A stretch of DNA of 64,000 nucleotides from the NCBI RefSeq assembly GCF_024508235.1, contig NZ_CP101943.1:1240001-1304000 (forward strand), in the 5' to 3' direction. The position numbers and the translations under genes were made by a program. Under the pieces are notes generated by a model that saw only the letters and a list, made by a program, of their open reading frames with translations, did no database searches and was not told where the DNA came from. This DNA comes from Halococcus qingdaonensis. GTDB lineage: Archaea > Halobacteriota > Halobacteria > Halobacteriales > Halococcaceae. Every line of letters begins with the position of its first letter. The first letter of the stretch is position 1. This document shows, in pieces, positions 5,162 through 46,444 of this stretch.

Positions 5162-5748
5162 GCGACGAGACGCGCGCACGCCTCGGTGCGAACAGCCGTA
5201 TCGACGACGGCGCGACCGTCGGCTACGTCCACGACGCCGACGCCTCGCCCGCCGTGATCGGCGACGACGCGACAGTGCGGGACGGCACCATCGTCTACGC
5301 CGACACCTCGATCGGCGACGAGTTCACGACCGGCCACAACGCCGTGGTCCGCGAGAATACGACCGTCGGCGACGACGTGCTCGTCGGCACCGACACCACC
5401 ATCGACGGTTCGTCGACGATCGGCTCGCACGTCAGCCTCCAGACCGGGGTGTACGTCCCGACCGAGACGACGATCGGCGATCGGGTGTTTGTCGGGCCGC
5501 GCGCAGTGCTCACGAACGATCCACACCCTCTGCGCCGCGAGGCGGACCTCGTCGGCCCGACGCTCGAAGACGACGTCTCGATCGGCGCGAACGCGACGCT
5601 GCTGCCGGACGTGACCGTCGGTAAGGGTGCGTTCGTCGCTGCCGGCGCGGTCGTCACCGAGGACGTCCCTGCGGAGACGCTGGCAGTCGGCGTCCCCGCG
5701 CGCCACGAACCACTACCGGAAGACCTCACAGGAGCCAACCAGCTATGA
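5158..5748 (+). CDS. Hexapeptide-repeat N-acetyltransferase (WbpD-like)
   Basis: A 196-residue left-handed beta-helix acyltransferase. Hexapeptide repeats run almost throughout (for example 'ATVGYVH', 'TIVYAD', '[10 protein letters not shown]', '[10 protein letters not shown]', '[19 protein letters not shown]'). The mid segment '[12 protein letters not shown]' matches the acceptor-loop motif of sugar 3-N-acetyltransferases such as WbpD. The predicted reaction is acetyl-CoA-dependent acetylation of the 3-amino group of a UDP-2-acetamido-3-amino-uronic acid. Start and stop both use ATGA overlaps, with the small ORF before it and the aminotransferase after it. The neighbouring aminotransferase, oxidoreductase and dehydrogenase make this assignment stronger than the sequence alone. 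Confidence 0.87.
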
Positions 5749-44885: not shown

Positions 44886-45167
44886 TCACTCCTCCGCGTC
44901 GAGCAACGACTCGAAGGCGACCCCGAAGTGGTCCTCGAACAGCGCGAGCGCGTCGTGTTCGATCGCTTCGGCCTCTGCCATCTCGTCTCTATCCATCTCG
45001 TAAGCGCGCCGCGTGCAATCGAACTGGGCGATGTCGGCGACGACGTCGGGCGCGCTATCGGTCTCGTCGGCGAGCGCCGCGACCAGCGCCCGCGGCAGTT
45101 CGAGCTCCGCGTGCTCGTCGCCCGCCGCGATGTCGAACGTGATCGTCTCACCCGTCGGCTCGGTCAT
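44886..45167 (-). CDS. Conserved haloarchaeal hypothetical protein
   Basis: A 93-residue strongly acidic protein: MTEPTGETITFDIAAGD..., then 'LELPRALVAALADETDSAPDVVADIAQFDCTRRAYEMDRDEMAEAEAIEHDALALFEDHFGVAFESLLDAEE'-type helices in its second half. It is all alpha apart from a first strand. It is possibly in the DUF7545-type group of haloarchaeal small proteins, a weak recollection. It has no catalytic motif. It is on the same strand as the downstream flavoprotein with 52 nt between. Confidence 0.7.
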   Translation of the reverse strand: MTEPTGETITFDIAAGDEHAELELPRALVAALADETDSAPDVVADIAQFDCTRRAYEMDRDEMAEAEAIEHDALALFEDHFGVAFESLLDAEE

Positions 45168-45253: not shown

Positions 45254-46444
45254 ATGGAGACGACGGCGGCGTTCGACGGGCTCATCTGTACGGACTGCGG
45301 TGAACGTTTCGACCCGGAAAGTACGACCCACGACTGTCCCGACTGTGGTGGGTTCCTCGACCCGCGCTACGACCTGAGCCACATCGATCTCGCGCGCGAC
45401 GAGCTCGAAACCCGCCCGTTCGACGGGCTCTGGCGCTACGAGGAGCTCCTTCCCGTGCCCCGCACGGCAGCGGTGACGATGGACGAAGGCACGACACCGC
45501 TCGTCGACTGTCCCGAGCTCGCCGACGAACTCGGCGTCGCACGACTGCTGATCAAGGACGAGGGTCGCAACCCGACGGGGAGTCGCACCGATCGCGGCCA
45601 CGCGCTCGCGGTGTCGGCCGCCCGCGAACACAGCGCGAGCGACGTCGCGCTCGCCACGACGGGCGACGCTGGCCAGTCGGCGGCCGCCTATGCCGCCCGC
45701 GCCGGACTGGACTCCCACGCGTTCGTCCCCACCCGCGCGAACTTCGGCAACAAGGCAATGATCAACGTCCACGGCGGCGATATGAACGTCGTCGAGGGAC
45801 GATACGACGACGCCGCAGCGGCCTGCGCGGGCGCACTGGACGACGAGGACTGGTACGCGACGAACCCCTTCGAGACACCCTATCGCCACGAAGGCGCGAA
45901 GACGATGTTCTACGAGATCGTCGAACAGCTCGATTGGGAGGTGCCCGACGGCATCGTCCAGCCCACCGGCAGCGGTGTCGGGCTCGTCGGTCTCCACAAG
46001 GGTGCGACGGAGTTCGCGGCACTCGGCCTCACCGACGACCTCCCCGGGCTGTACGCCGCCCAGGCGAGCGGCTGTGCGCCGATCGTCGAAGCCTGGGAGG
46101 CGGACGACGACAGTCACGAGCCCTGGGAGGTGCCCGACACGATCTGCGGCGGCATCGAGATCGCCGACCCCCACGGGAGCCCGCTCGTCCTGGACGCCCT
46201 TGACGACGCCGACGGGGGTGCTGTCGCCACCGACGACGAATCGATCCTCGACAGCGCGATCACGGTGGCCCAGCACACCGGCATCGAGATGGGCGCGAGC
46301 AGTGCGGCGGCAGCCAGCGGCGCGTGGGAACTCGCCGAGCAGGACGTGTTCGGGGCCGACGACACGGTCGTGCTCGTAAACGGCGCGAGCGCGAACAAGG
46401 AAGCCGACATCCTCCGCAGCCACCTGATGGGCAAGGGGATCTAG
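45254..46444 (+). CDS. Threonine synthase-like protein lacking the PLP lysine
   Basis: A 396-residue protein. The N-terminal zinc ribbon (CTDCGERFDPESTTHDCPDCGG) and overall length match archaeal threonine synthase. 'MDEGTTPLVDCPEL', 'LLIKDEGRNPTGS', 'ALATTGDAGQSAAAYAARAGLDSHAFVP' and 'ETPYRHEGAKTMFYEI' follow the family. However, the conserved 'SFKDRG' that supplies the Schiff-base Lys reads 'SRTDRG', with Arg111 and Thr112 in the places of Phe and Lys. The usual 'TGNAS' reads 'TGDAG'. It therefore cannot form the normal PLP aldimine at that site and is probably a paralogue with another role. The Met at 45254 starts just before the zinc ribbon. Confidence 0.85.
   Translation: METTAAFDGLICTDCGERFDPESTTHDCPDCGGFLDPRYDLSHIDLARDELETRPFDGLWRYEELLPVPRTAAVTMDEGTTPLVDCPELADELGVARLLIKDEGRNPTGSRTDRGHALAVSAAREHSASDVALATTGDAGQSAAAYAARAGLDSHAFVPTRANFGNKAMINVHGGDMNVVEGRYDDAAAACAGALDDEDWYATNPFETPYRHEGAKTMFYEIVEQLDWEVPDGIVQPTGSGVGLVGLHKGATEFAALGLTDDLPGLYAAQASGCAPIVEAWEADDDSHEPWEVPDTICGGIEIADPHGSPLVLDALDDADGGAVATDDESILDSAITVAQHTGIEMGASSAAAASGAWELAEQDVFGADDTVVLVNGASANKEADILRSHLMGKGI

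Follow-up and report, generated by a model that had tools for sequence, protein, structure and literature searches.

The key lysine of PLP enzymes is normally taken as fixed, whereas in the haloarchaeal family described here it has been lost at least five times with the gene intact. PLP-fold proteins include the pseudoenzymes SPTLC1 and antizyme inhibitor, the former pairing with SPTLC2 in serine palmitoyltransferase, and lysine-free PLP enzymes are known in fold type I. In fold type II, CysK accommodates the docked tails of CysE and of CdiA-CT, the latter ending in GYGI (PMC7690452). Regarding the haloarchaeal threonine synthases, Haloferax volcanii with a transposon insertion in thrC3 grows only when glycine, serine and threonine are supplied (PMC4300041), and therefore the other ThrC-like genes of this organism do not replace thrC3. 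In the open-licence literature we found no published description of lysine-less ThrC homologues.

The gene studied here lies in a 64,000-nucleotide stretch of Halococcus qingdaonensis DNA, referred to as the window, within a genome formed by one contig of 2.7 Mb; its features are collected in Table 1. No internal stops occur in the translated frame, and the protein matched the PALP domain (PF00291) with 221.5 bits (cut-off 35) and the NCBIfam model PRK08197, labelled 'threonine synthase', with 337 bits (over its cut-off of 303), its score of 151 in TIGR00260 (thrC) being under the cut-off of 167. Among named relatives, Halococcus thailandensis (95%) and then H. morrhuae (94%) come nearest. Upstream, the gene adjoins a divergent gene for a 93-residue DUF7545 protein (window 44889-45167, - strand). 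The zinc ribbon was correctly described as kept in a preliminary description of this DNA; its four cysteines are 100% conserved in lysine-bearing members of the family, and 76-92% in the large lysine-less clade.

Table 1. Features of the lysine-less gene and its product (positions in the window).
Feature	Position	Strand	Remarks
Fold-type-II protein resembling threonine synthase and lacking the PLP lysine	45254..46444	+	396 aa plus stop; PF00291 and PRK08197 matches
N-terminal zinc ribbon CxxC...CxxC, Cys12/15/28/31	45287..45346	+	
Altered PLP-lysine motif NPTGSRTDRG	45569..45598	+	Thr112 codon at 45587-45589
Altered asparagine loop TGDAGQ	45659..45676	+	A136T and N138D compared with SAGNAGQ of lysine-bearing relatives
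N171 to R183	45764..45802	+	171 and 183 track the tail, not the lysine
Altered PLP-phosphate loop PTGSGVG (G240S)	45962..45982	+	
PDTICGGIE (P294, D295, G299, E302)	46133..46159	+	track the tail, not the lysine
C-terminal tail DILRSHLMGKGI-COOH	46406..46441	+	at the exact protein end; basis: 185 sequences

The replacement of the Schiff-base lysine by Thr112, proposed in the preliminary description, was borne out by the translation and by a phmmer alignment (E 4e-39) in which this residue falls on Lys61 of the Thermus threonine synthase 1UIM. At the lysine motif the window protein reads NPTGSRTDRGH, and at the asparagine loop TTGDAGQS, with Asp138; the alteration of this second motif is thus real, but its proper reference is the SAGNAGQ of the subfamily rather than the TGNTS of ThrC. 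Sequencing error was ruled out, because the separately assembled genomes of H. thailandensis (SRTDRG) and H. morrhuae (SLTDRG) also encode this Thr, so that Thr112 occurs in three assemblies. The window gene is not the odd one out among orthologues that all carry SFKDRG, since three Halococcus species share Thr112 (preceded by R, R and L); in the other species of the genus the motif is still SFKDRG. We also considered whether the catalytic lysine had migrated, and rejected this: the conservation of K101, K167 and K216 extends to the lysine-bearing members, and therefore none of them is a replacement lysine.

The search for a second, lysine-containing thrC in the same genome recovered a canonical ThrC elsewhere (L002, G000:C1:2411120), with NPTGSFKDRGM, the GNTS asparagine loop and the GNAGN phosphate loop, and a third paralogue (L003) with SPTGSFKDRG; a CysK-like gene and a CysE gene are also present. 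A partial CysE-like match of 45 bits was observed at 5554-5703 of the window, the real CysE being located at G000:C1:1005561. Canonical ThrC was found in 31 of the 34 genomes examined. At 33-38% identity, canonical ThrC proteins are the closest relatives detected outside haloarchaea; the alignments with them stop around residue 374-386, short of the C-terminal tail. The protein does not group with canonical ThrC, and its sequence relationships place it in a separate family, found only in haloarchaea in our searches. The asparagine and phosphate loops differ from those of canonical ThrC, which suggests that the lysine-bearing members use a substrate other than O-phosphohomoserine. A third, sporadic subfamily (L012 and L255-L257), 42-47% identical, has a complete PLP signature (FKAAKMYGGGAST) and lacks the tail; one of its members (L012) reads NPTNTFKDRG, and the copy of Natribaculum breve is plasmid-borne.

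Regarding distribution, a relative with E <1e-75 was present in 382 of the 391 haloarchaeal genomes; the gene is missing from a few genomes, and its frame is intact in nearly all. The codon pattern NPTGxx(non-Lys)DRG matched 201/391 genomes and 44/86 genera, a rough figure only because of false matches (two of the 30 checked were unrelated aminotransferase-like proteins) and missed members, i.e., those with DRE or altered NPTG endings. The same gene without the lysine is present in roughly half of haloarchaeal genomes. Among 185 proteins sharing the C-terminal tail, a set selected to cover both lysine states and thus no census, 117 lack the lysine and have L, T, A, V, R, Y, D, I, H, F or G instead. 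Interrupted copies were also observed. In a draft genome of the same family (L029/L030, G010:C25), the gene is in two pieces (query 1-152 and 205-396) lying in different, overlapping frames, which may reflect an assembly error; and in an f5 genome (L213, G323:C1:2773000-2777500), the copy is broken, with matches split over frames and two TGA and one TAA reported inside.

The lysine was lost at least five times independently. The active-site motif columns were removed before a quick LG+G4 tree was computed, in which several branches are long; by parsimony, at least six changes of the lysine state occur on it. They fall in the H. morrhuae group, a Natrialbaceae group that includes Natrinema, a small group within the f3 genus g41, one f2 genome in which the residue is Arg, and a large f2/f3/f5 group, with a further change in the lineage of L083. 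In a 62-row tree from which further linked columns were removed, seven changes were counted, and a single lysine-less clade was rejected (lnL difference 542, AU p = 3e-73). Furthermore, several lysine-bearing and lysine-less loci have common neighbours, for example a divergent gene for an FAD-dependent amine oxidase on the upstream side, in support of replacement in place. An operon defined by guilt by association was considered and discarded, as the genes that recur nearby (FAD amine oxidase, metallophosphoesterase, HD, DtxR-like and LysE) make no consistent pathway. Two related Natrialbaceae proteins of the same genus, L083 (G314) and L178 (G156), have NPTGTSKDRG in an otherwise eroded PLP site, their lysine at 112 being either regained or retained.

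The loss of the lysine is accompanied by changes elsewhere in the PLP site. Across six independent contrasts, departures from the consensus of lysine-bearing members that accompany lysine loss amounted to 5.0 of 6 at G307 and A136, 4.75 at G240, and 3.8-3.9 at F111, M218 and K215, the median for 197 conserved sites being 0.16, although with six contrasts no single site can be formally significant; A136 usually changes to T or P in the lysine-less lineages. We defined a PLP signature of 13 positions (111, 112, 136, 139, 215, 218, 236, 240, 243, 307, 308, 309 and 377; consensus FKAAKMYGGGAST), over which the tailed proteins are bimodal. From the 68 with the lysine, 61 match all 13 positions, three match 11-12, and the remaining four, with 5-6 matches, resemble eroded sites in which a lysine is present by chance; all 117 without it match 0-7. 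Given this bimodal pattern, PLP binding in the usual mode appears unlikely for the lysine-less proteins. The phosphate-loop glycine G240, conserved in 97-100% of lysine-bearing members, is lost in 113/117 lysine-less tailed proteins, as are N138 in 36/117 and T377, Gly in the window protein, in about 40%. These losses also bear on the earlier suggestion that PLP might be bound without covalent attachment. The protein retains its fold and part of the pocket residues, and the lysine-free enzymes of fold type I offer a precedent, yet the phosphate-loop glycine and further residues of the pocket disappear together with the lysine, and we consider it improbable that non-covalent PLP or PMP binding persists, with PLP catalysis or sensing.

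Another explanation is that the old active site has become a pocket for PLP-independent catalysis or ligand sensing, its ligand site being shaped by A136T, K215A and G300E. Such a pocket would agree with the repetition of similar changes in independent losses, notably A136T, K215A and M247L/V, and with the near-invariance of NPTG, DRG, G137 and Q141 around the lost lysine. However, residue 112 varies without chemical pattern, and no residue was flagged as newly fixed (>=85%) in the large lysine-less clade while variable (<60%) in lysine-bearing members, as would be expected of a new catalytic residue, so that we regard this explanation as unlikely. The residues near-invariant in both states include K101, NPTG, DRG, Q141, R161, R211, Q270 and C274, among others, as well as the stretch K167-A-M-x-N-V-H-G-G.

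The sequences were also examined for selection. Pairwise NG86 estimates of dN/dS were 0.094-0.107 for the three lysine-less Halococcus gene pairs and 0.105-0.149 for lysine-bearing Halococcus pairs of similar divergence; the lysine-less gene of Halococcus is under strong purifying selection, and its coding sequence is therefore maintained, in accordance with the preserved frame noted earlier. These values also bear on whether the gene is a redundant threonine-synthase paralogue left to decay as a relic, for which the canonical ThrC elsewhere, the broken copy in G323 and the few genomes without the gene could be adduced. A dN/dS of about 0.1, frames intact nearly everywhere, an invariant tail and repeated survival after lysine loss stand against decay, and dN/dS together with the tail rule it out as the main reading, leaving it strongly disfavoured and highly improbable.

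Selection is visible at the C-terminal tail and at six residues that vary with it. The tail, D[VIL][LV]RSHLM[GS][QK]G[IV]-COOH, is found at the exact end of all 185 tailed proteins (68 with the lysine and 117 without), and its D, R and penultimate G are invariant; in the genome of the window no second site coding for the tail ending was found. Residues 171, 183, 294, 295, 299 and 302 read NRPDGE in 183 of these 185 proteins, whether or not the lysine is present. The Arg-Thr pair of the window protein, put forward in the preliminary description as a possible mark of selection, does not share this conservation: the residues replacing the lysine vary freely. The pair was rejected as the selected feature, and the reading as a non-catalytic paralogue stands as the best one. 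The tail and the six co-varying residues likely mark a functional surface. The function of the tail is not indispensable everywhere, because a few lysine-less proteins (L130, L131, L200 and L202) have altered tails and the copy in G323 is broken.

The reciprocal pattern was found in genomes with two copies. Eighteen second copies bear the lysine within an intact PLP signature (FKAAKMYGGGAST among the copies listed) and no longer have the tail, their C termini reading RSHLGEREF or similar. In these tail-less copies, 10 of the 94 sites common to tailed proteins of both lysine states are changed, most of them being N171, R183, P294, D295, G299 and E302. Each of the 13 two-copy genomes compared combines a tail-less copy that matches 13/13 PLP positions with a tailed copy that matches 1-6/13; in two of them (genomes G169 and G171) the tailed copy retains Lys112 and yet matches only 6/13. 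The tail-less copies sampled in the tree cluster together, and the separation in the direction of tail loss may thus rest on one lineage: tail loss may have been one event with one origin, compared with at least five losses of the PLP site. These 13 genomes, each with one PLP-intact copy and one tailed, PLP-eroded copy, are what would be expected if the lysine-less protein were a non-catalytic subunit pairing with its PLP-intact, tail-less paralogue, as SPTLC1 does with SPTLC2. However, in many genomes, including that of the window, the lysine-less protein is present and a lysine-bearing family member is absent, and therefore a partner there would have to be canonical ThrC or another enzyme; we judge this pairing quite improbable.

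On the sequence evidence taken together, we consider it probable that the window gene encodes a pseudoenzyme derived from a two-function haloarchaeal family, in which the PLP site was abandoned and the tail function kept. The ancestral protein would have combined PLP catalysis in a fold-type-II active site with a separable, PLP-independent function, carried by the tail DxLRSHLMxxG(I/V)-COOH together with N171, R183, P294, D295, G299 and E302. The H. morrhuae group and at least four other lineages would then have independently dropped the PLP site and retained the tail function. The window protein, which like other pseudoenzymes lacks a conserved catalytic motif and has a maintained gene, is most likely a regulatory or binding pseudoenzyme, predicted to bind no PLP productively and to act by binding. 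Its tail, with a free C-terminal Ile/Val after Gly, would most likely dock on the co-varying patch, either of its own or of a partner subunit, or into a partner protein, thereby holding or regulating a complex; by analogy with the tails of CysE and CdiA-CT in CysK, the first candidate partner would be another fold-type-II enzyme. We are evenly divided on the wider proposal, according to which a bifunctional PLP enzyme gave this near-universal haloarchaeal family a PLP-independent, tail-dependent regulatory function, the catalytic site having been lost repeatedly in parallel, with reciprocal loss in two-copy genomes. This almost universal gene constitutes a natural replicate experiment in the passage from enzyme to non-enzyme, and the reciprocal pattern of tail and active site points to a second function and to the residues concerned. 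In addition, the label 'threonine synthase' is to be read with caution, since in roughly half of the sampled haloarchaeal genomes it is probably wrong for genes that carry it.

With respect to known systems, the window protein shares with ThrC (PRK08197, TIGR00260; 1UIM, 6CGQ, 2ZSJ) the PALP domain and NPTG..DRG, and has a zinc ribbon as in archaeal ThrC. Unlike ThrC, it lacks the PLP lysine, the GNTS loop (which reads GDAG) and the GNAGN phosphate loop (GSGVG), the Thr at the pyridine-N position is replaced, and the C-terminal tail is unique. The lysine-bearing members of its family (e.g., those of other Halococcus species, L015-L021) are 75-81% identical and represent the same gene, with the same tail and NRPDGE, but keep F111, K112, A136, K215, G240, G307 and T377. 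With the tails of CysE and CdiA-CT the resemblance is confined to a short tail with a Gly-x-Gly-Ile-COOH ending, likewise tied to a fold-type-II PLP protein, and is no more than an analogy; the haloarchaeal tail, however, sits on the PLP-fold protein itself, and its fixed RSHLM has no counterpart there. The C-terminal end of the CysE encoded in the genome of the window was checked and is not GI. Compared with SPTLC1 and antizyme inhibitor, the fold type is different, and here the loss was repeated many times in one orthologous family. As in the pseudoenzymes with regulatory roles reviewed in PMC10211241, the enzyme fold is kept, the catalytic residue is lost, and the gene is conserved.
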